Source: Acidobacteriota bacterium
Lineage (GTDB): Bacteria > Acidobacteriota > Terriglobia > Terriglobales > Acidobacteriaceae
Reading direction: 5' to 3'
DNA: 64,000 bases
NCBI GenBank assembly: GCA_021803035.1
Contig: JAJZME010000068.1
Span: forward strand, 1 to 64,000
In this document: positions 9,520-24,044 of the stretch, in pieces
Position numbering within the stretch: the stretch's first letter is position 1
Layout of the letters: each line of letters starts with the position of its first letter
Made by a program: the position numbers and the translations under genes
Notes under the pieces: model-generated
Databases searched by the model: none
Told to the model about the DNA's origin: nothing
What the model saw: the letters and a program-made list of their open reading frames with translations, nothing else

Positions 9520-10974
9520 ATGACACTCTGGTTTCCGCTGCTCTTTCCATTGGTTTCCGCTTGCCTGCTGCTGGGATTCAAGAATCCTCGCACGGCTGTT
9601 CGAGCCGCACTGGGCATGGGCATTATCGAGGTGCTGCTGCTCGGCTTCTGCGGGTGGAACGTGTGGGTGCACGGCGTTCTGCAACAAGGAAAGTACCTTC
9701 GCGCCGACGGGCTGAGCTTGCTTTTCCTGATTAACCTGGGGCTCATCTTTGTTGTTGTTCTGGGGTACTCGGCCGGATATTTGAAGCACATTCCCAAGGG
9801 GCGCTTTTCGTCGTCGCGCTGGTATTATGCGCTGCTGTTTTTGTTTCTCTTCACCATGATCGCCGCCTACCTGTCAGCGAATCTCGGCATCCTGTGGATC
9901 GCGATCGAGGCAACAACACTGGCGTCGGCACTGCTCGTCGGTTTCTACAACACCAAGGGCGCGATTGAAGCTGGCTGGAAGTATCTGATCATGTGCACCG
10001 TTGGAATCGCCTTTGCGCTCTTGTGCACGATTGCGCTCTATTTGGCCGCTGTGCGCAGCGGCATTCCGGCGGGAAGAGCTCTGGATTGGACAGTGCTGAT
10101 GACGGCTGCGCCCGGGATGGCGGCCGCGCACGATCTTTTGAAGCTGGCGTTTGTGTTCATTGTTGTGGGTTATGGAACCAAGATTGGTTTTGTGCCCATG
10201 CATAGCTGGCTGCCGGACGCGCACGCCGAGGCGCCGGCTCCCATCAGCGCCATGCTTTCTGCCGCGCTCCTGAATTGTGCGATGTATGCCTTGCTGCGAC
10301 TGGATGCAATTACTTCGCGCGCCATCGGGGCCAGCTTCACGCATGGGCTGCTGATCACTTTCGGCTGCCTGTCGTTGCTTGTTTCCGTGCTCCTCATGAT
10401 TGTGCAGCGCAACCTGAAGCGGCTGCTGGCTTACAGCAGCATCGAACACATGGGGGTTGTCGCTCTGGGCGTCGGAATCGGTGGGCCGCTCGGCCTCTTT
10501 GGCGCGTTGTTGCACGCTTTCAATCACTCCCTTGCCAAAACGATGCTATTCTTCACTACCGGCAAGGTGCGTGATACGTTTGATACGCTGCGCATGGATC
10601 GAATTCGCGGCATGGCGCGTGCGCTTCCGTTCACAAGCGGGGTTTTGATCGTAGGCGGAATTGCGATTGTCGGTCTTCCCCCCTTCGGCTTGTTTGTAAG
10701 CGAATTGTTCATTCTTATGGCCGCCTTTAGCCGGCATCAGTACCTGGTGGCGGTGCTTATGCTGACCGCTTTTTCCATTGGCTTTGGCGCGCTGGCCTTC
10801 CATTTCCTGCGCATGTTGAGCGGCGAGCCGCAAGCTGCGCCCGGCAAAGCGAAGTTGCTGGCCTCTGAGGTTGCGGCCATTTGTGCTTGCGGCGTCTGCC
10901 TGCTGATTCTGGGGCTCCATGTTCCACTCGTTTTCAGCGCTGTGCTTCATCATGCAATGGCGGTGCTGCAATGA
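9520..10974 (+). CDS. Ehr/hydrogenase-4-like antiporter subunit (HyfF/NuoN-like)
   Basis: The second antiporter-like subunit, 484 residues, mainly membrane helices. It keeps the TM5-type Glu (LWIAIEATTLASALLVGFY) and TM7-type Lys (GYGTKIGFVPMHSWLPDAH). In the position where the HyfB-like subunit has SGVMLKTAVYG it has SAALLNCAMYA, so that lysine is an Asn here. It should form a second ion path. Its stop overlaps the large-subunit start by 4 bp (ATGA). Confidence 0.87.
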   Translation: MTLWFPLLFPLVSACLLLGFKNPRTAVRAALGMGIIEVLLLGFCGWNVWVHGVLQQGKYLRADGLSLLFLINLGLIFVVVLGYSAGYLKHIPKGRFSSSRWYYALLFLFLFTMIAAYLSANLGILWIAIEATTLASALLVGFYNTKGAIEAGWKYLIMCTVGIAFALLCTIALYLAAVRSGIPAGRALDWTVLMTAAPGMAAAHDLLKLAFVFIVVGYGTKIGFVPMHSWLPDAHAEAPAPISAMLSAALLNCAMYALLRLDAITSRAIGASFTHGLLITFGCLSLLVSVLLMIVQRNLKRLLAYSSIEHMGVVALGVGIGGPLGLFGALLHAFNHSLAKTMLFFTTGKVRDTFDTLRMDRIRGMARALPFTSGVLIVGGIAIVGLPPFGLFVSELFILMAAFSRHQYLVAVLMLTAFSIGFGALAFHFLRMLSGEPQAAPGKAKLLASEVAAICACGVCLLILGLHVPLVFSAVLHHAMAVLQ

Positions 10975-12431
10975 GCGCGGTTGGCACGCACTCCAAAGGT
11001 GCGGGTGGCAGGCGTGAGGCGTCTGTTCTGCTTGCGGCCGGCAACACCCGGCTGGTCTCAATTTTCGGCAGCATCGATGATGATGGCGAGCGATGGGTGC
11101 ACTATATCGTCGATGTGGACAGCCACGAGTATCGACTCTTCAGCGAGCAGGTGAAGGGCTCGATTGCCTCGGTTACCGCCGCAGCGCCGGGAGCAGCCTG
11201 GTACGAGCGTGAATTGCACGACCTGTTCGGCATCGAGGTGGAAGGCCACCCGAGTCTGCAACCGCTCGTGTTTCATGAGTCCTGGCCCGCGGATATTCAT
11301 CCGCGTCGCAAAGGCCAGGTTGGAGGCGATTACCGATTCTTGAAGGTACAGGGCGAAGGCGTTTGCGAGGTGCCTGTTGGACCTGTGCACGCGGGTATCA
11401 TTGAGCCTGGACATTTCCGCTTCAGCGTTGTTGGCGACACAGTGCTGCATCTTGAGTTAAGGCACTTCTACACGCATAAGGGCATTGAGGCTCACTTCGA
11501 AGGTGTCCCCGTGATGAGCGGCATGATGCTGGCTGAATCGGTGTCAGGGGACAACTGTTTTGCCCACGCGGTTGCATATTGCCAGGCGCTGGAAAACGCC
11601 TTTGGAGTCTCAGTGCCGCCTCGTGGACGCGCACTGCGGCTCATCGGGCTGGAGTTGGAGCGGATGCTGGCGCACATTGCGGATGTGGGCGCTTTGTGCG
11701 GAGATGTCGCCTTCACGGTTCCCGCGACTTATACGGCGCGGCTGAAGGAGGCTCTATTACAGGCTTCCGCACGCGTGACCGGCACGCGGTGGTGGCGCGG
11801 AGTGGCGCGCCCCGGCGGAGTGACGCGCGAGCTGGCGAAGGAAGATGCGCGCGCGTTGGGATCTGCCGTTGCCGCGGTGGCGCATGACTTTGCCGAGTTA
11901 GCGCAGATGATTCTGGAAACACCGTCGGTTCTGAACCGTTTTGAGTCAACTGGAGTTCTGAGCAGCAATGTGGCTCGCGCGCTCGGCGTAGTGGGCCCTG
12001 TTGCGCGTGCCAGCGGTCTGAAGGCCGATGTACGCCGCGATCACCCCTATGGCCGCTATCGCACGCTTACACTTGATGTTCCGCACTACAGTTCCGGTGA
12101 CGTGCTGGCCCGCGCGCGGATTCGCATGGATGAAACTGCCATGTCAGCGCGTTTGATTGCAGACGCTGTGGAAACCCTGCCCGCTGGCGCAATTGCTGCC
12201 GCGGGGCCATGGGACGGCAGTGCGGAAGGCTTTTCCGCTGTGGAGTCGCCACGCGGCGAGTTGCTCTATTTTGCGCGCGTGCGCGACGGACGTATACGGC
12301 GGTGCCACATCAAGTCGCCGTCATTTCAGAACTGGCCCGCTCTACCCCTGGCAATGCCGGGTAATATCATTGCCGATTTTCCTTTGATCAACAAGAGCTT
12401 CAATCTCTCCTACTCCGGATGTGACCGATGA
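10971..12431 (+). CDS. Ehr complex large subunit, NuoCD/HyfG-like, lacking all NiFe cysteines
   Basis: A 486-residue protein with a NuoC-like N-terminal part (WYERELHDLFGIEVEGHPSL) joined to a NuoD/HyfG-like large-subunit domain. In true group 4 hydrogenases the L1 motif is RVCGIC..AH and L2 is DPC..CTDR. Here the L1 region reads ESVSGDNCFAH (residues 189-199), with Ser192 and Asn195 at the cysteine places. The C-terminus reads SFNLSYSGCDR, with Ser480 and Gly483 there. The protein ends on this Arg, the residue after which HycE-type precursors are cut during maturation. So it cannot bind a normal NiFe centre and needs no maturation protease. It probably docks quinone or another electron carrier. 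Start at 10971 is fixed by the ATGA overlap. Confidence 0.9.
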   Translation: MSAVGTHSKGAGGRREASVLLAAGNTRLVSIFGSIDDDGERWVHYIVDVDSHEYRLFSEQVKGSIASVTAAAPGAAWYERELHDLFGIEVEGHPSLQPLVFHESWPADIHPRRKGQVGGDYRFLKVQGEGVCEVPVGPVHAGIIEPGHFRFSVVGDTVLHLELRHFYTHKGIEAHFEGVPVMSGMMLAESVSGDNCFAHAVAYCQALENAFGVSVPPRGRALRLIGLELERMLAHIADVGALCGDVAFTVPATYTARLKEALLQASARVTGTRWWRGVARPGGVTRELAKEDARALGSAVAAVAHDFAELAQMILETPSVLNRFESTGVLSSNVARALGVVGPVARASGLKADVRRDHPYGRYRTLTLDVPHYSSGDVLARARIRMDETAMSARLIADAVETLPAGAIAAAGPWDGSAEGFSAVESPRGELLYFARVRDGRIRRCHIKSPSFQNWPALPLAMPGNIIADFPLINKSFNLSYSGCDR

Positions 12432-13231
12432 TCTTTGACGTTGCCGCGCGCAGCCTTACCAGCAAATCCGTACTCATTCCGGTTGAGAGCTTGCTTGGCG
12501 ATTGCTCGGGGAGCCGCATGCCTGCAGTAGATCCCGGGCACCTGAGTTTTGACTCAGCCAGGCAGGCAATAGAGTCCTGTCCAACTTCGGCACTGCGCAT
12601 GGTCGCGGAGGGCGAGCGGCGGCAGTTCATCATGGATTACGGCGAATGCATCGGATGCGGATATTGTCTTGGGGTGGGAGATGGATTGATGCGCCCTGCC
12701 GGGAAAGTGCTTCACTGCGGCGTTGCGCGCGCGGCCCTCATTCGCCGCTGGGATGTTGCTACCGGCGAGGAGTTACTTGCCGATGATCTGGTTAAAGAGG
12801 GCGCAGCCGAAGAGATCCGCAGGCTGTTCGGTCGCGCGCTCAACATCCGGCAGGTTGATGCGGGCTCATGCAACGGATGCGAAGCGGAGATTGGAGCGCT
12901 AACAAGCCCTTATTACGATCTTGAGCGTTTTGGCATTCATTTCGTGGCATCGCCAAAGCATGCTGATATGCTCCTGGTTACCGGCCCGGTAACGCACAAC
13001 ATGGCGGAGGCGCTGAGGAACACCTATGAGGCGACGCCTTCGCCCAGACTCGTGGTTGCGGTGGGCGCTTGCGGATGTTCAGGTGGAATCTTCTCGGGAA
13101 GTTATGCAGTGAGAGGCGGAATTGACGCGGTGATTCCGGTAGACGCTTATATACCAGGATGTCCTCCGACACCCGCCATGCTGCTAACCGGAATCCTGCG
13201 CGTGTTAGGCGCGGAGATGCGGGAGCGATAG
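12428..13231 (+). CDS. Ehr complex small subunit: ferredoxin-like domain fused to NuoB/HyfI-like domain
   Basis: The 267-residue protein joins two units that are separate in E. coli Hyf/Hyc (HyfH and HyfI). The N-terminal part has cysteines for one [4Fe-4S] cluster: Cys51 (ESCPTSAL) and CIGCGYC at 74-80; the second cluster of HyfH-type ferredoxins is missing. The C-terminal NuoB-like part keeps the proximal-cluster ligands: CNGC (148, 151), GACGCSGG (215/217) and PGCPP (245). Electrons therefore probably pass through two clusters to the partner large subunit. It starts in an ATGA overlap and ends the operon. Confidence 0.88.
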   Translation: MIFDVAARSLTSKSVLIPVESLLGDCSGSRMPAVDPGHLSFDSARQAIESCPTSALRMVAEGERRQFIMDYGECIGCGYCLGVGDGLMRPAGKVLHCGVARAALIRRWDVATGEELLADDLVKEGAAEEIRRLFGRALNIRQVDAGSCNGCEAEIGALTSPYYDLERFGIHFVASPKHADMLLVTGPVTHNMAEALRNTYEATPSPRLVVAVGACGCSGGIFSGSYAVRGGIDAVIPVDAYIPGCPPTPAMLLTGILRVLGAEMRER

Positions 13232-13467: not shown

Positions 13468-14517
13468 ATGTGCAAGGAGCGCACCACCAGCCGAAGAGAG
13501 TTCCTCCGGAACTGCGTCGCGGGAGCTGTGGCTATCAACACCGCAGGCCAGTCCACTCCAAGCTTTCCAGGCAGAGCCGTTGCCCCGCCGGCGCGATCGA
13601 GAGTGTCGATTGCTCGGGATCCATTGCTGCGTGGTGCTCCGCGGCGGGAAACAGGATCGTCTCAGGGAGGGAACCGCGTAGATCCAACACGAATCCTGGT
13701 TCTCCTCGATCAGGCAGTGCATGGGATTATCAACGCCGGGGATCCGAGCGGCGCATGGACGAAGGCGGTGCGTCCGGGGCAGCGGGTCGGTTTGAAGGTA
13801 AATACGCTGGGCGGGCGCGGGCTTTCAACGAACGTGCTGCTTGTGGAGGCGATCTGCGAACGGCTGCGCGAAGCGGGAATCAAGGCATCGGACATCGTGA
13901 TCTGGGACCGGGACAGCGAGGAATTGGAGCGTGCCGGCTTTCGCATCCGCAGCGGCGGCAACCAGGTGCAGTGCTACGGCACTGACCGCGTGGGTTACAG
14001 CGACTATCTGGCGTCATTCGGCAGCGTCGGCAGCCGGCTGTCGAAGATTCTAATTGAGCGCTGCGATGTGCTGATTAATGTTCCGGTGCTGAAGGATCAC
14101 GATGGCGCGGGCGTAACGATCGCTCTCAAGAACATGTACGGTGTGATCCACAATCCGAACAAGTATCATCCCGATGGCTGCAATCCCTACATAGCGGATG
14201 TGAATGCGCTGCCCGAGTTGCGGTGCAGATTGCGCCTGCACATCTGCGATGCCACTACAGCCTGCTTTGAAGGTGGACCGGGTTTCAAGCCGCAATTTGC
14301 CTGGCGCGCAAATACATTGATTGTCTCTACAGATCCGGTGGCGCTCGACTATTCCGGCTGGCAGATGATCGAACGCAAGCGCGCTGCCGAGGGATTGAAG
14401 ACGCTAACGGCCGAAGGCAGAGCACCGAACTACATTGCTACTGCGGCGGACGCGAGGCATCGGTTGGGTAATAACGATCCACGGCGCATCACGGTGGTGG
14501 AAACACAGGTGGCGTGA
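13468..14517 (+). CDS. Tat-exported DUF362 protein
   Basis: A 349-residue protein with a twin-arginine signal (TSRREFLRN then a hydrophobic stretch), so it is probably moved folded to the periplasm. The rest is a DUF362 domain with VGLKVNTLGGRGLST, VPVLKDHDGAGVTIALKNMYG and GGPGFKPQ. It carries no ferredoxin motif, unlike some DUF362 relatives. It is a clear paralogue of the protein at 20831-21829. I use the ATG at 13468, which has AAGGTGG upstream and places the Tat motif at the N-terminus; a GTG at 13432 would add 12 residues. It heads the forward arm of the convergent cluster. Its function is unknown. Confidence 0.85.
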   Translation: MCKERTTSRREFLRNCVAGAVAINTAGQSTPSFPGRAVAPPARSRVSIARDPLLRGAPRRETGSSQGGNRVDPTRILVLLDQAVHGIINAGDPSGAWTKAVRPGQRVGLKVNTLGGRGLSTNVLLVEAICERLREAGIKASDIVIWDRDSEELERAGFRIRSGGNQVQCYGTDRVGYSDYLASFGSVGSRLSKILIERCDVLINVPVLKDHDGAGVTIALKNMYGVIHNPNKYHPDGCNPYIADVNALPELRCRLRLHICDATTACFEGGPGFKPQFAWRANTLIVSTDPVALDYSGWQMIERKRAAEGLKTLTAEGRAPNYIATAADARHRLGNNDPRRITVVETQVA

Positions 14518-14529
14518 AAGGGGTGCGCG

Positions 14530-15777
14530 ATGATTCCGGAACGCTCCTCATGCGGGATTAGCGAGACGCAGGATTGCGCGGGAAAGAACGAGGCCAGCTG
14601 CGCTTTGCGCGGCGAACAGCTACCGGCGCGCTGGCCGCTGGATCGCCGGTCCTTTCTGTTGAAGGCCGCGTCGCTTGGCATGGCGGGAGGCGCATGTCAG
14701 ATCTTGCAGCCATTGCGGGCCATGCCGGGGTGGGCGGAGCCTGCGCGGGAGAATGACGCGCGGTTTATCGTCGAGGCGCGATTCTACCGAAAGCTCGCGA
14801 ACAAGAAAATCAAGTGCAAGCTGTGCCCGCGGGAATGCGTGGTGGGCGATCGCGAGCGCGGATACTGCGGTGTTCGTGAAAATCGCGGTGGTGTTTATTA
14901 TTCGCTGGTGCATTCACGGGTCTGCGCTGCGCATGTCGATCCGGTGGAGAAGAAGCCGCTGTTTCATTATCTGCCCGGCTCGCTGGCGTTTTCGCTGGCA
15001 ACGGCGGGATGCAATGTGAACTGCAAATTCTGCCAGAACTGGGATATCTCGCAGGCACGCCCGGAACAGATTCCCGCCGAGTATATTCCGCCGAAGCGAG
15101 TAGCCGAACTGGCGGCGCAATGGAAATGTCCGACGATTGCGTATACCTACAGCGAACCGGTGGTGTTCAGCGAGTTTCTGATGGATGCCGCGGATGCAGG
15201 ACACGAGGCGGGCATTCGCAGCGTTGTGATATCGAATGGCTACATTCAGGAGGAGGCGCTGCGAGCCGCGTATGGAAAGATGGATGCGGTCAAGATTGAT
15301 CTGAAGGCATTTTCGGAGAGCTATTACCAGAAGGTTGTGGTGGGAGAGTTGAAGCCGGTGCTCGATACGCTTGTCACGCTGCGCAAAATGGGCAAGTGGA
15401 CCGAGATTGTCTACCTCGTAGTGCCCACACTCAACGACAGCGACGCGGAGTTCAACGGCCTGGCGCGCTGGGTGAAAGGGAATCTCGGCATAGACGTGCC
15501 GCTGCATTTTATCCAGTTTCATCCCGATTATCTGCTGAAGAACCTGCCCATCACGCCTGTCAGCACGCTGGAGCGCGCGCGGCGGATCGCGATGGCGGAA
15601 GGACTTCACTTTGTGTATATCGGCAATGTTCCGGGGCATCCGGCTGAGAACACATATTGTCCGCAGTGCAAGCACCTGCTGGTGGAGCGGGCGGGATTCG
15701 AGATCCGTCAGATGCTCATTCGCAAGGATGCATGTCCCTTCTGCAAACGGAAGATTCCAGGCGTCTGGCACGCTTGA
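14530..15777 (+). CDS. AmmeMemoRadiSam-type radical SAM protein with twin-arginine N-terminus
   Basis: The 415-residue protein has the radical SAM motif CNVNCKFC (Cys161, 165, 168) that binds a [4Fe-4S] cluster and SAM. Before it is the Cys motif KLCPRECVVGDRERGYCG, and at the end two CxxC pairs (CPQC, CPFC) that could bind zinc or another cluster. This pattern is that of the AmmeMemoRadiSam radical SAM family, related to pyruvate formate-lyase activases. The gene for its usual partners, Memo and AMMECR1, follows directly. Unusually, residues 38-52 look like a Tat signal (DRRSFLLKAASLGMAGG). Radical SAM chemistry needs cytoplasmic SAM, so this may be an anchor rather than a true export signal. 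Confidence 0.88.
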   Translation: MIPERSSCGISETQDCAGKNEASCALRGEQLPARWPLDRRSFLLKAASLGMAGGACQILQPLRAMPGWAEPARENDARFIVEARFYRKLANKKIKCKLCPRECVVGDRERGYCGVRENRGGVYYSLVHSRVCAAHVDPVEKKPLFHYLPGSLAFSLATAGCNVNCKFCQNWDISQARPEQIPAEYIPPKRVAELAAQWKCPTIAYTYSEPVVFSEFLMDAADAGHEAGIRSVVISNGYIQEEALRAAYGKMDAVKIDLKAFSESYYQKVVVGELKPVLDTLVTLRKMGKWTEIVYLVVPTLNDSDAEFNGLARWVKGNLGIDVPLHFIQFHPDYLLKNLPITPVSTLERARRIAMAEGLHFVYIGNVPGHPAENTYCPQCKHLLVERAGFEIRQMLIRKDACPFCKRKIPGVWHA

Positions 15778-15800
15778 GCGCGGAAGAACAGGACTGGTAC

Positions 15801-17372
15801 ATGAACATGAGATGGGAAAGTTGCATGATGGTAGCACTATTTCTCAGTTTCCTAACAACAACGCTTTGGTCACAGACGGGTCTTGAACAGAAGAAATTGC
15901 GCCCCGCGGGAGTGGCAGGAAGCTTTTATCCGGCAGATCCAACTGTGTTGAGGGCCATGATGGACGGCATGCTGGCGAAGGCAACGACGCCGCCGATCGA
16001 AGGACAAATCCTGGCTCTGGTGGCGCCGCATGCGGGCTATCAATACTCGGGACCGGTGGCAGCTTACTCGTATGCGGCGCTTAAGGGGCACAAATACGCG
16101 CGCGTTGTGATCATTGCCCCATCGCACTACGAGGCTTTCAATTTTTCCTCGGTGTATGATGGCGACGGCTACGTGACTCCGCTGGGTGTTGTGCCCGTCG
16201 ATAAGGCATTCGTTGAAAAGCTCACCAGGACCAATGCTTCAGTCCGGCTTTCGGAGCGCGGGCACAAGCGAACCGCGCAAGGTGCGGAACATGCGCTTGA
16301 AGTGCAGTTGCCGTGGCTGCAGCGTGTACTGGGAGACTTCACGCTGGTTCCCATCATCATGGGAGACCAGAGTTATGCTGCCAGCCGCGCGCTCGGAGTG
16401 TCGCTGGCCAAACTCATTGAAAAGGAGAGCAGCGCGTCCGGCACTTCAGGCCCGGAGGGTGCGGCGGGAGACACGCTGATTGTCGCCAGTTCCGATCTTT
16501 CGCACTATCACACCTATAACGAAGCGGAGCGGATCGATCATAAGACGCTGGCCGCGCTGCAAATCTGGGACTACCTCAACATGTCGCGCAACTTCCAGAA
16601 TCGCGTGTGGGAAGCATGCGGCGGCGGACCTATTATTGCCGCAATGATTGCCGCCGAGCGCATGGGCGCGAATGAGGCCCGGGTGTTGAAGTATGCAAAC
16701 AGCGGCGATGTCACAGGAGATCGTTCGCAAGTGGTGGGCTACAGCGCGGATGTTTTTGTGAAGACGGCAAGCGGAAAGACAGTTGGCGCCGCGTTCTCTC
16801 TGAGCGAAGAAGAGCAGAAGAAACTGCTTGACGTGGCGCGCAAATCGGTGGAATCTGCGGTCCAGCGGCATAAACTCTACGCGCCTGAGAGCACGAGCGA
16901 CGATCGGCTGAACCAGGACCGTGGCGCATTTGTGACCTTGCGCGAAGGAGGCAGACTGCGCGGGTGCATTGGTTTTACCGCGGCGAATGAGCCTCTCTAC
17001 ATGACAGTGAGAGACACGGCCACACTTGCCGCCCTGCGCGATCCGCGATTCCGGCCGGTTGCCGCACCGGAGCTACCCAAGTTGGAGTACGAGATCTCGG
17101 TGTTGTCGCCGATGCGGCGCGCGCGCGATGTTCGGGAAATCCGCGTGGGCGAGCACGGGCTGTTGATGAAGAATGGCGATCGCGAAGGGCTACTGCTCCC
17201 GCAGGTTCCTGTAGAGCAGCACTGGGATCGGACGACGTTTTTACGCGAAACATGCGTCAAGGCCGGCATGGTTCCCGAGTGCTGGCAGGACGACGATACA
17301 GACATCTTCAAATTCACAGCATTCGTGTTCGGCGAACAACAGCCGCCTACGCACGATGCCTCGCGGAATTGA
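15801..17372 (+). CDS. Fused Memo-AMMECR1 protein with signal-like N-terminus
   Basis: A 523-residue fusion. The Memo half (about 34-300) keeps the family's His and Cys positions in APHAGYQYSG, APSHYEAF, SSDLSHYH and EACGGGPI. The AMMECR1 half (about 345-515) has the hallmark LRGCIGF at about 386. The three parts of the AmmeMemoRadiSam system are thus encoded in two adjacent genes. A hydrophobic segment MMVALFLSFLTTTLWSQ suggests export or anchoring; ATGs at 15801, 15807 and 15825 are all possible (GGGAAAG precedes 15825). Human and bacterial Memo proteins bind metals in redox chemistry; the bacterial system's job is not known. The 3' end overlaps the convergent gene by 26 bp. Confidence 0.87.
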   Translation: MNMRWESCMMVALFLSFLTTTLWSQTGLEQKKLRPAGVAGSFYPADPTVLRAMMDGMLAKATTPPIEGQILALVAPHAGYQYSGPVAAYSYAALKGHKYARVVIIAPSHYEAFNFSSVYDGDGYVTPLGVVPVDKAFVEKLTRTNASVRLSERGHKRTAQGAEHALEVQLPWLQRVLGDFTLVPIIMGDQSYAASRALGVSLAKLIEKESSASGTSGPEGAAGDTLIVASSDLSHYHTYNEAERIDHKTLAALQIWDYLNMSRNFQNRVWEACGGGPIIAAMIAAERMGANEARVLKYANSGDVTGDRSQVVGYSADVFVKTASGKTVGAAFSLSEEEQKKLLDVARKSVESAVQRHKLYAPESTSDDRLNQDRGAFVTLREGGRLRGCIGFTAANEPLYMTVRDTATLAALRDPRFRPVAAPELPKLEYEISVLSPMRRARDVREIRVGEHGLLMKNGDREGLLLPQVPVEQHWDRTTFLRETCVKAGMVPECWQDDDTDIFKFTAFVFGEQQPPTHDASRN

Positions 17373-19683
17373 AGCCGAGGAAGGAAACGGAGGCCGCCGG
17401 CGCCAGGGCGATTATTGCAGACATCCACGCAGTGTTCCAGAAGCCAAGCAGCGGGACAAGAAATGCTGCGAGCAGCAATGCGCCCGCACAGCCTCCCAGC
17501 AGATCGAGAGCGTAGAGCGTGCCTGTGCCTGGTTGTGTTGGGCGGCCATCCTGATGGATCGCCGACGCAATCGGGAACTGATAGCCTCCCGGCATTCCAC
17601 AGAAGATGGCGAGCGCGGAGAAGATGAACTGGGTGAGCGGCATAAAGCCGCTTGCTGCGGAACTGCGGGCTAGCTGAGTGACCAGGAACAGGAGCAGTGG
17701 GGAAGCGGCCGCCAGCAAGAGGAGATTGATAGCTGCCGATCTCAAGAAGAGCCTGGTGTTGTTCCGGCCAAGCTGCGTGAGGCCGAGCAAGCTTCCCAGG
17801 GCGATGCCGGCCATAAACATGCCGATCAGCAGTGCCAGGCTGTAGTAGACATAACCGCAAATTGACTGGAAGGCAAGCAGGAGAAGAAGTTGCAGCGCCA
17901 TGAGCGTGTAGCCTGTGGCGACGACAGACCATGCCGCGACGTAGCGCGCGCGTTTTTCCGCGGCAAAATGCCAAAGGAGGATCAACAAGAGCGACGACGC
18001 GGCAACAACGGCGAGCAGTACCGGGAAGCGGATGCCAGCGAAGTTTTCGAGCAGGCGCGCATAACCAGACTTGAATTGAGCGCCCCACAGCACGGTCCCG
18101 AAGTAATAGGCGACGGGCTCAAAGTCGCGATTGGTGGGAGTCGACGGAAGCGAGCGCAGCAGTTCATTCATCTGCGCCATGCGATCGGGCATCATGCGAA
18201 AGGGAATGAAGTACTCGCGCACGTAACGAGTGTGAAGGCCGCGGCCTTTAAGTCTCGCCATCAATGCGTGCGGATTGCTGGTGAGAACTCCAGGCTGCGT
18301 GGCGCCAAACATGTGGATGGTTGCGCCCGGAATCACAGTCACGTAAGGAAACACACCGTGAAGCGTGTGGTGAATGCAGCGGAGAAAGGCGGCGAGCGCG
18401 GGGCCGATGGAATCTTCCGAGGCGCGCAGATTGAGCGCGACCAGTCCCCCGGGCGCAAGGTGATCGCGAACCGAGCGGAAAAATTCTGTGGTGTAGAAAC
18501 GGTTCAACTGGGCATTTTCCGGTTCGGGTACGCTTACGATGACCGCGTCGAATTTGCGCCTGCTTGACTTCAGATAGCGCCGCCCGTCGGCGTAATGGAC
18601 ATGAACCCGCGGGTTGGCGAAAGCGCGCGCATACTCGGCTGGAAAGAACTGCTTGTAGATCCCGATCAACGCCGGGTCAAGCTCAACGTAGTCGAGCCGC
18701 TTGATGGTTGGATGTTGAAGAGCTTCGGCAATGCTCCCATTGATGCCGCCGCCCATAAGCAAGACCCGCGTGGGGGCAGGGTGTTCCAGCAGCGCGTAAT
18801 GCACTGTTTCCTCGGCTGCTGCCGCGTCAGGCACATTGGCGAGCACGGCGCCGTTTTCATAGATGCTTCGCAGCCCGCCGGATTCCAGAACGGTGAGCTT
18901 GCCATAAATTGATTCTCTGGAGCCGATCACGCGGAAGCCCTTCCAGATGCGCTGCTGCGTAGCTTGCTCCATGCGCGGCGCTACCCGGACTAAAAGTACA
19001 AGAACCAGCGCTGTTGCGGCTATCGCTGTCCCAACGCGCCAGCGCCGGATTCTGAAATACAGGCTGCATGCCACGATCAGATTCAGCAGGGTGACAATCA
19101 ACGCTAACTGAAAGGAGTTGAGGAAGCCGAGCAAGAGAACGCTGGTGAGGATTCCGCCCAGCGCGAAGCCGGCAGTTTCAAAGAGATAGGCAAGGCTGAC
19201 GGCCGTATGTCCCGCAACCGCGCTCTCTTGCTGCACCATGCGGGCCGCGAGTGCAAAGAGGCAGCCTGAGACGATGCAAAATGCGCTGAGGCTTAGCGCG
19301 GAAGCCAGTGCCAATGGCACAGGCCCAAGCAACTCGCCCGGCACTGCCTGCAAATGTGCCCTTGCGCCGCGCACGATCCAGACTGCAAGTGGAATGCTCA
19401 GGGCGCTCAGGCATTCCGCTGCGGCAATGGCCGTGCGTACGTCAGCGCGTCTGCGCGCCAGGCTACCGCCCAGAGTACTGCCTGCGGCAGTCCACGCGAG
19501 CCAGATGGCGAGAAAGACTCCCAGGGACAGCTCATTGCCGTTGAAGAGAACAATGACTTCACGCATGAGCGTGATTTGCCCAACCGCGGCGGCGCATCCT
19601 ACAACCGCGGCAACTGCTTTGGCCACGCGGATGGATTGCTTTCTCGACGCATTGGAACCGTCATGCACTGGACCTGCAATCAT
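17347..19683 (-). CDS. Membrane-fused spermidine-synthase-like protein with altered active site
   Basis: The 778-residue protein has a methyltransferase-fold spermidine-synthase domain in the middle, with several membrane helices before and after it. The SAM-site motifs GGGINGSIAEAL and YVELDPALI are present, as is FYTTEFFRSV. Where real aminopropyltransferases have the catalytic Asp (VDSTDP-like), this protein reads VIVSVPEPENAQ, so the acid is replaced by Ser/Val. It may therefore bind a SAM-like ligand without making spermidine. It is the last gene of the five-gene minus-strand operon and ends tail-to-tail with the Memo-AMMECR1 gene. No polyamine genes are nearby. Confidence 0.8.
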   Translation of the reverse strand: MIAGPVHDGSNASRKQSIRVAKAVAAVVGCAAAVGQITLMREVIVLFNGNELSLGVFLAIWLAWTAAGSTLGGSLARRRADVRTAIAAAECLSALSIPLAVWIVRGARAHLQAVPGELLGPVPLALASALSLSAFCIVSGCLFALAARMVQQESAVAGHTAVSLAYLFETAGFALGGILTSVLLLGFLNSFQLALIVTLLNLIVACSLYFRIRRWRVGTAIAATALVLVLLVRVAPRMEQATQQRIWKGFRVIGSRESIYGKLTVLESGGLRSIYENGAVLANVPDAAAAEETVHYALLEHPAPTRVLLMGGGINGSIAEALQHPTIKRLDYVELDPALIGIYKQFFPAEYARAFANPRVHVHYADGRRYLKSSRRKFDAVIVSVPEPENAQLNRFYTTEFFRSVRDHLAPGGLVALNLRASEDSIGPALAAFLRCIHHTLHGVFPYVTVIPGATIHMFGATQPGVLTSNPHALMARLKGRGLHTRYVREYFIPFRMMPDRMAQMNELLRSLPSTPTNRDFEPVAYYFGTVLWGAQFKSGYARLLENFAGIRFPVLLAVVAASSLLLILLWHFAAEKRARYVAAWSVVATGYTLMALQLLLLLAFQSICGYVYYSLALLIGMFMAGIALGSLLGLTQLGRNNTRLFLRSAAINLLLLAAASPLLLFLVTQLARSSAASGFMPLTQFIFSALAIFCGMPGGYQFPIASAIHQDGRPTQPGTGTLYALDLLGGCAGALLLAAFLVPLLGFWNTAWMSAIIALAPAASVSFLGFNSARHRA

Positions 19684-19747
19684 GGTGGGCTGCGGCGCGG
19701 CGCGCTCACCTTGCGAAGAGGCTGCAAGTCTGCGGTCCGGAAGCAGC

Positions 19748-20818
19748 CTACGAGGCCTTGAGACTGAGCCGGCTGATTTTTACGGCCAGCTTTTCAAAGT
19801 CCACGGTGCCAAGACCGCGCGCCGCGGCCATCTGCAAATAGGGCAGATCTTCAGGGTTCAGATTCCAGTAGGCCTTGGCAACGTACGTGTCAATGGCCAC
19901 CGGATCAGTACTGGCAACGACGGTCTTCTTCAGCGCCACGTCTTCCAGATCGCCGCCGGTCGGCCCGTTACGCAGTAGAACCCGGTAGCAGTCCATGATG
20001 GTAAGCGTGGGCAGCATGAAGTTGGCCAGGTCCACAAGGCTCTGGTGAATCTGCTGATGAAGGCGGTTGCGCGCGCCGCCAAGAATGCCGTACCAGTTCT
20101 TCATGCCCAGGGTGACGCCGACCAGCCCATGCTGCTTGGCAATGGGCAGGTTGATCACTTTGTCCGCATCGAGAAACGGGCCGAAGACAGGCCAGTCCTT
20201 GAGCACGATGCCGTTCATATTTACTTCGCGGAAGAGCCGCTGTTCGGGCAAGATCACGTCAGCGCCCTCGGCGCGGGCAGCGGCTTGAATGCCGGAGCGC
20301 AGGAAGCAGCGCTGTGGCTCGTTGCAACTTACATCGGTAACTACAACGCGCCTGGCTCCGGCCTGCCAGCACTGGCGAACCACTTCGGCGACCAGCTCCG
20401 GGTTGGTGTTGGCGGCTTGTTCGGGAGTGCGGTCCCAGGCGATGTTGGGCTTGAGGACGACCGTGTCCTGGCGGCTGATGAAGCGGCGTATCCCGCCCAG
20501 GTTTTCCAGTGCTTGTTGCACCAGCGCGCGCGGTTCGCCCTCGCGCGCAGCGGTGGCTGTGCCGTTCTCCATGGGGTAGTAGACGACCGTCATCTGGGGC
20601 AGTTGCGCATCGGCTGCAACGCGATGGTCGCGGCGCGCTTGCTCGGGCCGCGCCGGAACCGGTTTCGTATTGCGCTCGCTGAGCCAGAACGCGGCGCCGC
20701 CTACGCCGGCTGCGACTCCGCCAAGGCGAAGGATCTCGAGCAGCGCTTCGCGGCGCGACATGCCGGCGGGGAGCCTGGCTTCCTCTGCATTCAATTTGCG
20801 GTCGCTGTCCCCGGACAT
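19748..20818 (-). CDS. Tat-exported DUF362 protein, divergent member
   Basis: A 356-residue protein with an N-terminal twin-arginine sequence (MSRREALLEILRLGG) and a hydrophobic stretch, followed by a DUF362 domain with VVLKPNIAWDR, VVTDVSC, LPIAKQHGLVGVTLGMKNW and DPVAIDTYVAKAYW. It is more distant from the two paralogues at 13468 and 20831. GGAGAAG precedes its ATG. It lies 12 bp after the other DUF362 gene in one transcript. The job of DUF362 proteins is unknown, but they often sit next to Fe-S or quinone-linked genes. Confidence 0.84.
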   Translation of the reverse strand: MSGDSDRKLNAEEARLPAGMSRREALLEILRLGGVAAGVGGAAFWLSERNTKPVPARPEQARRDHRVAADAQLPQMTVVYYPMENGTATAAREGEPRALVQQALENLGGIRRFISRQDTVVLKPNIAWDRTPEQAANTNPELVAEVVRQCWQAGARRVVVTDVSCNEPQRCFLRSGIQAAARAEGADVILPEQRLFREVNMNGIVLKDWPVFGPFLDADKVINLPIAKQHGLVGVTLGMKNWYGILGGARNRLHQQIHQSLVDLANFMLPTLTIMDCYRVLLRNGPTGGDLEDVALKKTVVASTDPVAIDTYVAKAYWNLNPEDLPYLQMAAARGLGTVDFEKLAVKISRLSLKAS

Positions 20819-20830
20819 AGCTTCTCCTTG

Positions 20831-21829
20831 TCACACCTCCATCAGGTGAATGTGCCGCGGATCGTTGGTGCCCAGCCGGTGCGCGGCATTGGCGGCGGTG
20901 GCAATGTATGCCGGCTCCCGGCCGTCTGCCCGGAGCGTGGGCAGGCCCTCCTGGACGCGCTTGCGGTCGAGCATTTGCAGGGCGATGGAATCGACGGCGA
21001 CGCGGTCCTGACCAATGATCAGTGCATTGGGGTACCACATGTACTCGGGGTTGAAACCGGGGCCCCGGTCGTAAACGGACGAGAGGGCGTCGCCAATAGT
21101 GAAGCAGACCTTATCGCGCACCGTGGGCAGGGCATTGAGATCAGCGACTCCCGGGTTGCAGTGATTGCCGTGAAGCAGATTGGGGTGGTCGACTACGCCG
21201 TACATGTTTTTCATGGTGAAGGTGAGGCCGGCTGAACCGTGATCTTTGAGAATGGGGACGCTGATGACCATGCCGCAGTCGCGGGTGAGGATCTGCGACA
21301 GCCGGAGCAGCGCGGAGCCGCAGGCGACGGCCTGATCTTCAAAGCCGGCGATATCCGATCCGTAGCAGCGGACGCGATTGCGGTCTGTGTTGATCGTCAT
21401 GCCGCAGGCTATCAGGTCGCGGGCATTGCGGTCCCAGACAACAATATTGCCCGCGGGCACGCCCGCCTGTTGGAGCCGCTCGCTGATGGCGTTGATCAGC
21501 ACGGCGTGCGTAGAAATGCCGCGCCCGCCGAGCCCGTTCACTTTGATGCCGATGATTTTGCCACGCGGAATGATCTGCTGCCAGGCTTCGAGGGGCTTTT
21601 CCCGGCCGGTGTAAGCGGCCATGGCTTTGTCGAGCAGGGCGAGCACACGCTTTTCATCCGGCTGCGTGCCGCTGGCTTCATGCAGGCCGGCATCGCGAGC
21701 CACCACCACGCGCGATTGGGCGCTGGCAGCATGCTTCTGGAGTGCATCGGCCAGGCCGAGCTTGCTGCCTGCCCCCACCAGAACAGCTCCCGTGGCGGCG
21801 CTCTTGAGAAATTCCCGGCGATTCTTCAT
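20831..21829 (-). CDS. Tat-exported DUF362 protein, paralogue of the 13468 gene
   Basis: A 332-residue protein with the Tat signal NRREFLKSAATGAVLVGAG and a DUF362 domain. It shares long conserved blocks with the protein at 13468-14517: IKVNGLGGRGIST, KDH.SAGLT...KNMYGVV, CNP..ADLNALP, GPGFNPE and the C-terminal IATAANAAHRLGTNDPR. Two copies, one at the head of each convergent arm, suggest two related steps or a hetero-oligomer. A GGAG before the ATG supports the start. Location is probably periplasmic. Confidence 0.86.
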   Translation of the reverse strand: MKNRREFLKSAATGAVLVGAGSKLGLADALQKHAASAQSRVVVARDAGLHEASGTQPDEKRVLALLDKAMAAYTGREKPLEAWQQIIPRGKIIGIKVNGLGGRGISTHAVLINAISERLQQAGVPAGNIVVWDRNARDLIACGMTINTDRNRVRCYGSDIAGFEDQAVACGSALLRLSQILTRDCGMVISVPILKDHGSAGLTFTMKNMYGVVDHPNLLHGNHCNPGVADLNALPTVRDKVCFTIGDALSSVYDRGPGFNPEYMWYPNALIIGQDRVAVDSIALQMLDRKRVQEGLPTLRADGREPAYIATAANAAHRLGTNDPRHIHLMEV

Positions 21830-21892
21830 GGCTTTCTCCTGACTTGTTTGCGAGCCGGCATGATGGCCGGGTTAAGCTCCTGCGGTGCATCG

Positions 21893-22387
21893 TTACAGTT
21901 TTGCCTCGACGCCACGAGCCAGGGCCATCAGCGCCTGGGGTGTGTCAGGTGTGGACTCATAGGCGACGATGTGGACCAGATAAACGCCCTTGCGGAAGCT
22001 GACACTTTGCTCGTATGCGACGCCGGCATCGCCCAACTGAACGCTCCTGGCGCCTTTGGACAGGCTCGAATCGAAGATCTTGGTTGCGCCTTCGGCGTCG
22101 CCCATTTTGTACACATCCACAACCGCATCCAGCTTGTCCTGGTATTTGTAGTCAGAGGTCAAGGTGGAAACGACGCCGGCGCTGATATACCGGTCCGCTT
22201 CGCCGTCGATGTATTGCCAGAGATCCTTTGCGGCATAGATGCGCGTCTCGCTGGTCTTTTGCCAGCCAGCGACTGCGCCCGAAGCTGGGAACGGGTGGAC
22301 TTTCGCTGTCTTGCATGCAGTGATGGCACACATCGCCGCCAATGCAACGGCAACACATGCCAATTTCATTTTGCCTGTGATCAACAT
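21893..22387 (-). CDS. DUF6599-like lipoprotein
   Basis: A 164-residue protein with a signal peptide ending in a lipobox (ITAC), so it is probably attached to a membrane by lipid on Cys. The segment AGWQKTSETRIYAAKDLWQYIDGEADRY fits the DUF6599 pattern, in which a W..YI.G motif is typical. GGAGAAAG precedes the ATG. It is second in the operon, 16 bp after the polyferredoxin gene, and presumably works at the periplasmic face with the DUF362 proteins. Function unknown. Confidence 0.72.
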   Translation of the reverse strand: MLITGKMKLACVAVALAAMCAITACKTAKVHPFPASGAVAGWQKTSETRIYAAKDLWQYIDGEADRYISAGVVSTLTSDYKYQDKLDAVVDVYKMGDAEGATKIFDSSLSKGARSVQLGDAGVAYEQSVSFRKGVYLVHIVAYESTPDTPQALMALARGVEAKL

Positions 22388-22403
22388 TGCAGATCTTTCT
22401 CCT

Positions 22404-24044
22404 TTATTTGGGGTTCAGAAGAATCTGGCTGCTGGGTGAACGGCTTTCGCCGATGCTGGTTACGTAAACCGCGGGATGATCCTGGATGGGGCAGGCGTAT
22501 TCGCAGGCGCCGCAGCCAACACAGCGGCCGGGATCGATGTAAGGCTGCTTGAGCGTTTTGGCTTTGCCGGATGCGTCGGCCACCTGAGCTTCCAGAATAT
22601 AAATGGCCTTCGGCGAGACCGGACACCACTCCTCGCACACAATGCACTCGGTGGCCATGGCCCACGGCAGGCAGTGGCCACGGTCGTAAAATGCGGTGCC
22701 CAAGCGTACGGGGCGGCTGTTTGATTGGCTGACGCCAACGACCCAACCTTTCTCCCGTGGCGTGATCTGCCAGATGGCGCCGGTGGGGCAGACCTCGGAA
22801 CAAAGAACGCAGCTCGGCTCGCAATAGCCGATGCGGGGCACCAGTGTGGGCGTCCACAAGCCTGCCAAGCCGGCCTGATCGAGTGTGGGCTGCAGCGCGT
22901 TGTTGGGGCAGACCTTCATGCACTCACCGCAGCGGATGCAGCGCGCCAGAAAGTCCGGCTCGTCCAGTGCGCCGGGCGGGCGCAGAAGCCTGGCGTTGCG
23001 GTCCTTGCCCAGCCCCGTGTTGGCGCGCATCAGCGGCACCACCACCGCGCCCGCGGCCAGCCCCGTGACGGCGCGCCGGCGGCCCAGATCAGGCGACAGG
23101 ATCTCTTTCTCTTTGCGGAAGAAGCGGAACTCAATGCCGGAGTGGGGGCAACTGCCAACGCAGTTCATGCACATCACGCATTCAGACTTGCGCCAGGGAA
23201 CGCCGCCGATCGGATCATCGCCGCCCTGGCAGTGGAGCAGGCACAGGTTGCAGCGGTCGCAGGCGACGGGGTCCTTGTGCAGCCCCAGCACGGACCAGCG
23301 CGAGACTGCTCCGAGCAGCGCGCCCAGCGGACAAATGGAACGGCACCACAGGCGCGTAACGCGCAGGCTGGCGACAAGAATCAGCACGAAGAGAACGCCG
23401 AGAAAGACGCCCTGCTGGAAGTGCGTTTGCCGGAAGTCGAGCACGGTGGCTTGCAGCGCGGAGTGCAGGTCTTCGCCAGCGGACCGGACGAAGGCGATGT
23501 GGCTATGCTCAAAGGGCCACAGCGAGGCGCGCACCGCGTAGTTGAATGCGGGAAGAATCGACAGGCCCAGCGAGCGGACCAGCAGGCTGAACGGATCGAG
23601 CCAGCCGATGGCCATCGAGCCGAAGAATGCAGCCACCAGCCCGGCGATGAGAACCACATACTTGATGGTCTGCCAGCGCTTGTAGCGGTTGGACTCAATG
23701 CGGCGCTTGCCGCGTTTGCTCTCCGAATGCCAACTGCCGACGAATTGCTGCAGCGTCCCGAGCGGGCAGATCCAGCCGCAAAAGAAGCGGCCGAGGAAGA
23801 GCGTGGGCAGCAGAATCACCAGGCTCAGCAGCAGGCCGCGGTAAAGAGAGTGCGAGGCCAGCGCGTTGCCGAGCGCGACCAGCGGGTCCCACTCGAAGAA
23901 CAGGCGCACCGGGGCGCGCATCTCAATGTCGCCGGCAGCGCCGGGCGTGGGGCGCAGCGCTGTGAAGATCAGCAGTCCGATGAACAGGAGCAGAAAGAAG
24001 ATCTGCGAGATCCTGCGGAATAGCGGCAATCTTGACCGGGCCAC
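22404..24044 (-). CDS. Membrane-bound polyferredoxin (NapH/NapG-like fusion)
   Basis: The 546-residue protein begins with membrane helices and two NapH-type motifs (GRFFCGWICPLG and CRSICPLGALLG). Cluster motifs follow: CDRCNLCLLHC and CVMCMNCVGSCP, then a Tat-like hydrophobic stretch after RRAVTG, and a NapG-like half with CIRCGECMKVCP, CEPSCVLCSEVCP, CIVCEEWCP and CVGCGACEYACP. It thus joins a quinol-facing membrane part to a chain of about six [4Fe-4S] clusters. It should carry electrons between the quinone pool and periplasmic or membrane partners, here probably the DUF362 proteins (inference). Start is a GTG with GGGAGGAG 4 nt upstream. It is first in the operon. Confidence 0.87.
   Translation of the reverse strand: MARSRLPLFRRISQIFFLLLFIGLLIFTALRPTPGAAGDIEMRAPVRLFFEWDPLVALGNALASHSLYRGLLLSLVILLPTLFLGRFFCGWICPLGTLQQFVGSWHSESKRGKRRIESNRYKRWQTIKYVVLIAGLVAAFFGSMAIGWLDPFSLLVRSLGLSILPAFNYAVRASLWPFEHSHIAFVRSAGEDLHSALQATVLDFRQTHFQQGVFLGVLFVLILVASLRVTRLWCRSICPLGALLGAVSRWSVLGLHKDPVACDRCNLCLLHCQGGDDPIGGVPWRKSECVMCMNCVGSCPHSGIEFRFFRKEKEILSPDLGRRRAVTGLAAGAVVVPLMRANTGLGKDRNARLLRPPGALDEPDFLARCIRCGECMKVCPNNALQPTLDQAGLAGLWTPTLVPRIGYCEPSCVLCSEVCPTGAIWQITPREKGWVVGVSQSNSRPVRLGTAFYDRGHCLPWAMATECIVCEEWCPVSPKAIYILEAQVADASGKAKTLKQPYIDPGRCVGCGACEYACPIQDHPAVYVTSIGESRSPSSQILLNPK

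Follow-up and report, generated by a model that had tools for sequence, protein, structure and literature searches.

A candidate extracytoplasmic AmmeMemoRadiSam-type pathway around an exported-type radical-SAM enzyme in Acidobacteriota

A 64,000-nucleotide stretch of DNA from an Acidobacteriota bacterium (assembly GCA_021803035.1, contig JAJZME010000068.1, positions 1 to 64,000), referred to here as the window, carries a cluster of eight genes that includes a radical S-adenosylmethionine (SAM) enzyme of the AmmeMemoRadiSam type and a fused Memo-AMMECR1 protein. The other members are three DUF362 proteins, a major facilitator superfamily (MFS) membrane protein with an inserted spermidine-synthase-like domain (SpdSyn-MFS), a DUF6599 lipoprotein, and a polyferredoxin. 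On balance, we favour the view that this cluster encodes a modification pathway which operates outside the cytoplasm. Its probable location and unity rest on sequence; its substrate, SAM supply, and electron route, and the role of DUF362, are inferred. The parts belong to known families and the triad is that of the AmmeMemoRadiSam system; what appears to be new is the exported arrangement and its partners.

To our knowledge, radical-SAM enzymes are regarded as cytoplasmic, since that is where SAM and low-potential electrons are found. A widespread exported clade, if true, would break this rule and would mean that SAM or an analogue is available beyond the membrane, and the exported-type sets of many bacteria suggest that chemistry usually deemed cytoplasmic may also be done outside. 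In the literature searched, which left most subscription journals out of reach, we found no description of an exported or periplasmic radical-SAM enzyme, no paper on DUF362 together with AmmeMemoRadiSam, and none on DUF6599. Memo and AMMECR1, families which both have human members, would gain a genetic setting with new partners for testing their function, and DUF362, a family of unknown function, gains a proposed role via its LarA-like fold.

Export signals on the radical-SAM enzyme and Memo-AMMECR1

We examined 140 radical-SAM loci in two sets. The first (L006-L065) was hand-picked from the TIGR04337 matches listed in Acidobacteriota, with many matches, often on short contigs, passed over; the phylum loci comprise 50 from matches scoring at most 408 bits and, as a contrast, nine from matches scoring at least 425 bits. 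The second (L066-L145) is the best 80 of at least 573 relatives, all from prokaryotes. Signals were called by a strict rule and by eye. Inspection set ten enzymes to twin-arginine translocation (Tat) type (L006, L019, L021, L022, L023, L029, L038, L040, L049, and L077) and reset L142 from hydrophobic to none. An “exported-type” enzyme in this context has either a Tat signal or a plain hydrophobic N-terminus.

The window's radical-SAM enzyme starts with a Tat signal, LDRRSFLLKAASLGMAGG, in which a hydrophobic stretch follows the arginine pair (RR). The pair is invariant in 38 aligned exported-type homologues, as are the CxxxCxxC motif (C161, C165, and C168), further cysteines, a TYxEP motif, and other core residues. 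Within the phylum, TIGR04337 matches form score classes: the RR and hydrophobic signal is present in 47 of the 50 loci at or below 408 bits (the exceptions being L010, L054, and L056) and, by the strict rule, in none of the nine at or above 425 bits, where a looser scan flags one (L057). Over all 140 loci, 98 enzymes are exported-type (74 Tat by rule, 10 Tat by eye, and 14 plain hydrophobic), 39 have no signal, and three have unclear N-termini (L099, L101, and L128). These three stay outside the two-by-two counts, which compare the 98 with the 39. The enzyme is, in our judgement, very probably exported. The 14 with a plain hydrophobic N-terminus (L087, L089, L092, L095, L097, L098, L110, L113, L114, L118, L119, L127, L131, and L135) include several from Omnitrophota and WOR-3. 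In L006, the 45 codons upstream of the RR contain no usual start codon.

A tree of the radical-SAM domain alone, with the signal excluded (quick method, midpoint root; L049 dropped by a length filter), places all 97 exported-type rows in one 103-row clade with a Shimodaira–Hasegawa-like approximate likelihood-ratio test (SH-aLRT) support of 95. The other six rows of this clade are L116, L122, L142, and the three with unclear N-termini, and 36 rows without a signal fall outside it. Judged by record titles, the clade spans Acidobacteriota, 19 further named phyla (e.g., Omnitrophota, Planctomycetota, Myxococcota, Chloroflexota, Latescibacterota, Elusimicrobiota, and Armatimonadota), unplaced records, and an Altiarchaeota archaeon, nearly all on binned contigs. 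The contig binned as the archaeon holds a Tat-type radical-SAM gene, Memo-AMMECR1, and SpdSyn together (L115, 8989-15105).

Between the export signal and the conserved cysteines, nine exported-type enzymes (L044, L046, L049, L050, L091, L096, L107, L111, and L120) carry a CxxCH heme-c motif. Eight of them, together with L099, make up one 9-row group of the tree, L049 not being in it. The frequency of CxxCH is 0.047 per 1000 residues over all open reading frames (ORFs), and further down the cysteine-rich radical-SAM domains it is found 12 times in 38,021 residues; in L141, which has no signal, a CxxCH lies apparently ahead of the start. Attachment of heme c takes place outside the cytoplasm, so a CxxCH that follows the signal gives independent support for export.

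The window's Memo-AMMECR1 protein has an N-terminal hydrophobic signal of the Sec type. By rule, Memo has a signal in 41 of 47 exported-type loci versus none of six others. Of the six that the rule missed, four seem hydrophobic on inspection and two are truncated; the Memo of L142, one of the six others, likewise seems hydrophobic. The Memo ORF includes AMMECR1 in 45 of the 47 versus one of the six others. On reading the sequence, three segments of the window's Memo (APHAGY, APSHYE, and ACGGG) may correspond to the metal ligands His, His, and Cys (H49, H81, and C244) given for MEMO1 in PMC11081632.

The sequence-only reading of the window, a model's annotation that preceded this analysis, had missed both the Tat motif on the radical-SAM enzyme and the signal peptide on Memo-AMMECR1. 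It pictured quinol-linked electrons passing to Tat-exported proteins, with a radical-SAM/Memo modification step. The exported parts hold up and the electron supply is plausible. The radical-SAM enzyme and Memo-AMMECR1, however, are exported-type as well, which makes it unlikely that modification takes place in the cytoplasm.

Alternatively, the RR and hydrophobic segment could be a membrane anchor only, with the catalytic domain in the cytoplasm as part of a membrane-bound AmmeMemoRadiSam system. The 14 enzymes with a hydrophobic N-terminus but no RR would suit such an anchor, as would the signal-less relatives that work inside and the many loci in which DUF362 has no signal. We consider it quite unlikely, however: 84 of the 98 enzymes have a Tat-type motif (ten of them by eye), CxxCH heme motifs follow the signal, Memo-AMMECR1 carries signals, DUF6599 has a lipobox, and the SpdSyn domain is predicted to lie outside.

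Conserved partners and a separable second module

Neighbours were counted within 9.5 kb of the radical-SAM gene, with Fisher values not corrected for kinship. SpdSyn is near in 61 of 98 exported-type loci versus one of 39 others, DUF362 in 48 versus none, DUF6599 in 18 versus none, and Memo in 47 versus six. Starting instead from DUF362, 49 of the 56 best matches listed (at least 330 bits in a 297-genome sample of the phylum, including two from the window itself) lie no more than 500 bp from a TIGR04337 match, which indicates an association beyond chance. Within 6.5 kb of a listed radical-SAM gene there are 51 of these 56, and one more (G194, L158) is adjacent on reading.

Two layouts are common. 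One has Memo-AMMECR1, DUF362 with a Tat signal, and the radical-SAM gene, along with SpdSyn; the other has DUF362 with no signal, the radical-SAM gene, and SpdSyn but no Memo, often with a divergent DUF6599. A DUF362 without any signal stands beside a Tat-type radical-SAM gene in L013, L016, L017, L021-L024, L027-L029, L033, L034, and L040. FAD synthetase, RNase III, Gly-tRNA synthetase, and an AI-2E transporter were considered as partners and rejected, as they recur only in the layout with divergent DUF6599.

It is highly likely that the radical-SAM enzyme, DUF362, SpdSyn, and Memo are one unit. SpdSyn, although on the reverse strand here, clearly belongs with the other three, so the two strands are not functional units. 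A second module consists of the polyferredoxin and a second DUF362 subfamily (DUF362b), in most cases together with DUF6599. It occurs with no neighbouring radical-SAM gene in L149, L150-L153, L157, L163, and L165 and beside the first module in seven loci other than the window, and is therefore separable yet recurrently linked to it. All of the former except L149 come from genomes with TIGR04337 matches elsewhere. The seven are L066 (Solibacteraceae), which has every family of the set but two DUF362 genes against the window's three; L070 (an unplaced bacterium), where DUF362b, polyferredoxin, DUF6599, DUF362, the radical-SAM gene, and SpdSyn are all on one strand; and L045, L047, L051, L154, and L155, where polyferredoxin and DUF362b lie near the radical-SAM gene. 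L164 has DUF362b, polyferredoxin, and Memo-AMMECR1. L149 is from the window's genus (G171:C9) and has DUF362b, DUF362, DUF6599, and polyferredoxin, i.e., the reverse arm minus SpdSyn; TIGR04337 finds no match in its genome.

The sequence-only reading had assigned both arms to one process. Conserved sets, and near-full sets that recur (L066 and L070), speak for this, but its division by strand does not survive and the polyferredoxin/DUF362b module can be separated. As a result that would refute it, it had named arms that occur independently and are together only here; independent occurrence is found (e.g., L149), and the seven other loci contradict the rest. The polyferredoxin-DUF362b loci with no neighbouring radical-SAM gene would also be expected if the two strands were unrelated neighbours brought together by chance, but we regard this as very improbable because both modules adjoin in those seven loci and SpdSyn clearly goes with the radical-SAM enzyme.

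SpdSyn-MFS, DUF362, and the proposed pathway

The model of SpdSyn-MFS is confident, and structure comparison assigns its soluble domain a spermidine-synthase fold (Z 30.8 to 1uir) and aligns its membrane part with MFS proteins (four SV2A entries at Z 20.7-25.1 over 360-366 residues, and URAT1 at Z 20.9). NF037959, a fused MFS/spermidine synthase family, matches at 69.3 bits (cut-off 40), and such a fusion is an already known annotation; the speE equivalog scores 84.9 bits, far under its cut-off of 249.55. Seven helices precede the SpdSyn domain in the model. Its loops average 16.6 Lys and Arg on the side called inside and 1.0 on the other, with inside greater in 61 of 61 sequences (sides were set by alternation after the charge pattern had been seen, and both termini were left out). 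In an MFS protein, a position in loop 7-8 would also put an inserted domain outside. Taken together, the seven preceding helices, the loop charges, and the MFS fold lead us to predict that the SpdSyn domain lies outside the cytoplasm. MFS proteins have 12 helices; the model has thirteen long ones besides the SpdSyn domain, which makes its end provisional.

In place of the aminopropyltransferase motif IIDLTDP of 1uir, the window protein and most homologues shown have a PxP motif, while E334, D336, and D366, which we take to be nucleoside-site residues, are kept in at least 85% of homologues. Having lost the catalytic aspartates and retained these putative nucleoside-site residues, SpdSyn-MFS is probably not a polyamine synthase. 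It resembles NF037959 and PF01564 in score and fold, and differs in the PxP motif, the predicted outside position of the domain, a score far below the speE cut-off, and the link to an exported-type radical-SAM enzyme. A SAM-like nucleoside site outside fits such a neighbour, and we tentatively suggest that the protein may be a carrier of SAM or a related nucleoside.

A structure search with the model of the window's core DUF362, which has the fold of the LarA N-domain, returned twelve LarA-type rows at Z 14.7-17.0, with the next unrelated row at 4.9; the best (7s91) has Z 17.0 over 203 aligned residues at a root-mean-square deviation of 2.8. A sequence search of the PDB with DUF362 gave only an insignificant match (E 0.27). 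DUF362 and the DUF2088 domain of LarA share Pfam clan CL0471, according to PMC11770544. In a profile alignment with seven LarA homologues from these genomes, the invariant H211 and K221 of DUF362 pair with His and Lys in FHYFAGYSGGAK (hhalign probability 71.0). In those homologues, the two residues are presumably the catalytic His and the Lys that tethers the nickel-pincer (NPN) cofactor. Unlike LarA, DUF362 has no C-terminal domain, carries Tat signals, and is not always accompanied by LarC.

The fold (Z 17) and the alignment of H211 and K221 also suit another explanation, in which DUF362 proteins are NPN enzymes like LarA, served by a LarA-type pathway whose LarB, LarC, and LarE are made elsewhere. 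Lar_N matches lie 9-39 bp from a Tat-type radical-SAM match in five genomes from two families (G030:C131, G068:C51, G043:C101 [L042], and G016:C134 [L052] in one; G056:C141 in the other). LarC is found in 78 of 89 DUF362-bearing genomes, including the window's own, versus 133 of 208 others, a comparison not corrected for kinship. This explanation has a low probability, however, because the other 11 of the 89 have no LarC match, among them six that are 94-100% complete and have DUF362 adjoining the radical-SAM gene (G013, G078, G144, G207, G228, and G294), and because DUF362 has no LarA C-domain. NPN was rejected as the DUF362 cofactor on these 11 genomes and on G265, which has LarC and no Lar_N or core-DUF362 match. 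In G043, the Lar_N protein carries LarA_C as well, and no signal is seen on it by eye. The DUF362 lysine is perhaps modified by the exported system itself; that DUF362 is the acceptor of the modification is possible, if doubtful.

The polyferredoxin scores 94.2 bits with NapG and 86.9 bits with NapH, both under the equivalog cut-offs (269 and 234). It has four C..C..C...C motifs plus variant ones, and an internal RR and hydrophobic stretch sits where the NapG-like half begins. Like NapH-NapG quinol dehydrogenase ferredoxins, it combines a membrane NapH-like half with an Fe-S NapG-like half; unlike them, it is one chain and is paired with DUF362b, mostly also with DUF6599. A quinol-type electron supply is plausible.

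The extracytoplasmic pathway we favour would work as follows. The radical-SAM enzyme would fold and gain its Fe-S clusters in the cytoplasm before export through Tat, and Memo-AMMECR1 would leave through Sec. Outside, the two would act on, or build a cofactor for, the LarA-fold DUF362. The MFS protein, with its SpdSyn domain facing outward, would handle a SAM-type nucleoside, either delivering SAM or recovering methionine/deoxyadenosine. Where present, the NapH-NapG-like polyferredoxin would move electrons across the membrane, a role which a heme-c domain on the radical-SAM enzyme may take over in one subclade.

Several points weigh against this pathway. Export, SAM cleavage, and activity outside are all predictions. 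We know of no periplasmic SAM pool, and quinol-level electrons of the NapGH type have little reducing power for a radical-SAM cluster. The polyferredoxin is rare, being near the radical-SAM gene in six of 98 exported-type loci versus none of 39 (p 0.18, not significant), and 15 of the 98 lack SpdSyn, DUF362, and Memo alike in the available DNA, some on short contigs. Of 56 DUF362 cases in exported-type loci, 26 show no signal, the majority of them in the layout without Memo; a DUF362 of this kind must ride along with a partner or stay inside. Ten Tat calls rest on inspection and not on the rule, two rule-based calls (L090 and L100) are doubtful, and the loci beyond Acidobacteriota are mostly contigs of binned genomes, where misassignment is possible.

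The difficulty of explaining SAM outside would disappear if the exported protein were a relic radical-SAM enzyme that does no SAM chemistry and works there purely as an Fe-S electron carrier or scaffold, and if SpdSyn bound another ligand. NapGH-like and heme-c partners suit electron transfer. We find such a relic unlikely, however, in view of the invariant CxxxCxxC, TYxEP, and other core residues in 38 homologues, a score still above the TIGR04337 cut-off, and the retained residues of what we take to be the nucleoside site of SpdSyn. A more detailed form of the extracytoplasmic pathway is speculative, and we would not expect it to hold in full: SpdSyn-MFS would export SAM or swap it for the spent nucleoside, and the Tat-exported radical-SAM enzyme and Memo-AMMECR1 would build a covalent modification, pincer-like or other, on the lysine that belongs to the LarA fold of exported DUF362. 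Beyond Acidobacteriota, and provided that the bins are correct, this would apply to over a dozen further phyla and one archaeon.

Compared with the AmmeMemoRadiSam system, the window has the same three families (TIGR04335, TIGR04336, and TIGR04337) above their cut-offs and keeps the CxxxCxxC and the N- and C-terminal cysteines. It differs in its export-type signals, its fused Memo-AMMECR1, its separate clade, and its additional proteins (SpdSyn-MFS, DUF362, and sometimes NapHG-like polyferredoxin and DUF6599). A 2019 paper by Burroughs and colleagues, cited in PMC7159879 for Memo-Ammecr1 systems, may describe part of the present system.

Coordinates and surrounding genes

All eight ORFs are present in the window in the place, order, and convergent orientation that the sequence-only reading gave them, and their coordinates and Pfam/NCBIfam scores bear out its family assignments (Table 1). 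The short spacings it described are likewise real: 12 bp between DUF362 and the radical-SAM gene on the forward arm, and 64, 12, 63, and 16 bp on the reverse arm, where the 12 becomes 69 with a later DUF362b start. At their 3' ends the two arms run into each other and share 26 bp (17347-17372). The window's genome encodes TatC, its sole AMMECR1 match is the window's Memo-AMMECR1, and no signal was seen on its second TIGR04337 gene (G000:C43, L166).

Table 1. Features of the cluster in window coordinates, with the evidence for each; family cut-offs are in brackets (pLDDT, predicted local distance difference test)
Feature	Position	Strand	Evidence
DUF362, core subfamily, LarA N-domain fold, Tat motif SRREFL	13468..14517	+	PF04015 83.6 bits (24); alignment; model pLDDT 90.8, LarA fold Z 17.0
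AmmeMemoRadiSam-type radical-SAM enzyme, predicted Tat signal with RR at residues 39-40	14530..15777	+	TIGR04337 379.8 bits (220); RR and CxxxCxxC invariant in 38 homologues
Predicted Tat signal peptide region of the radical-SAM enzyme, end approximate	14635..14754	+	LDRRSFLLKAASLGMAGG and its hydrophobic stretch
Memo-AMMECR1 fusion, predicted Sec-type signal peptide	15801..17372 (start 15801-15828 uncertain)	+	TIGR04336 251.8 bits (26) and TIGR04335 177.9 bits (99) on one ORF; N-terminal hydrophobic segment
SpdSyn-MFS, MFS-type membrane protein with inserted spermidine-synthase-like domain	17347..19683	-	PF01564 82.5 bits (22.9); NF037959; model pLDDT 92.5
SpdSyn domain and flanks, residues 238-551, predicted extracytoplasmic	18031..18972	-	Seven helices ahead of domain; loop Lys and Arg charges
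DUF362b, second subfamily, Tat-like motif SRREAL	19748..20761	-	PF04015 169.2 bits; subfamily adjoins polyferredoxin elsewhere
DUF362 core-subfamily paralogue, Tat-like motif NRREFL	20831..21829	-	PF04015 65.5 bits; 387.3 bits with core-DUF362 profile
DUF6599 lipoprotein, short form, lipobox-like ITAC	21893..22387	-	PF20244 68.3 bits (27)
NapH-NapG-like polyferredoxin, internal RR and hydrophobic stretch at about residue 322	22404..24044	-	NapH-like 4-162, NapG-like 326-529

Directly ahead of the cluster, at 9520-13231 on the forward strand, are genes like those of complex I and group-4 hydrogenases: an antiporter subunit, a 30/49 kDa fusion, and a 20 kDa subunit. They were rejected as cluster members, since neighbourhood clustering gave no cluster of at least three ORFs shared with other loci, though no search was aimed at these genes. 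By eye, the large subunit seems to have no nickel-binding CxxC pairs, and the genes perhaps encode an energy-converting hydrogenase-related complex without nickel.

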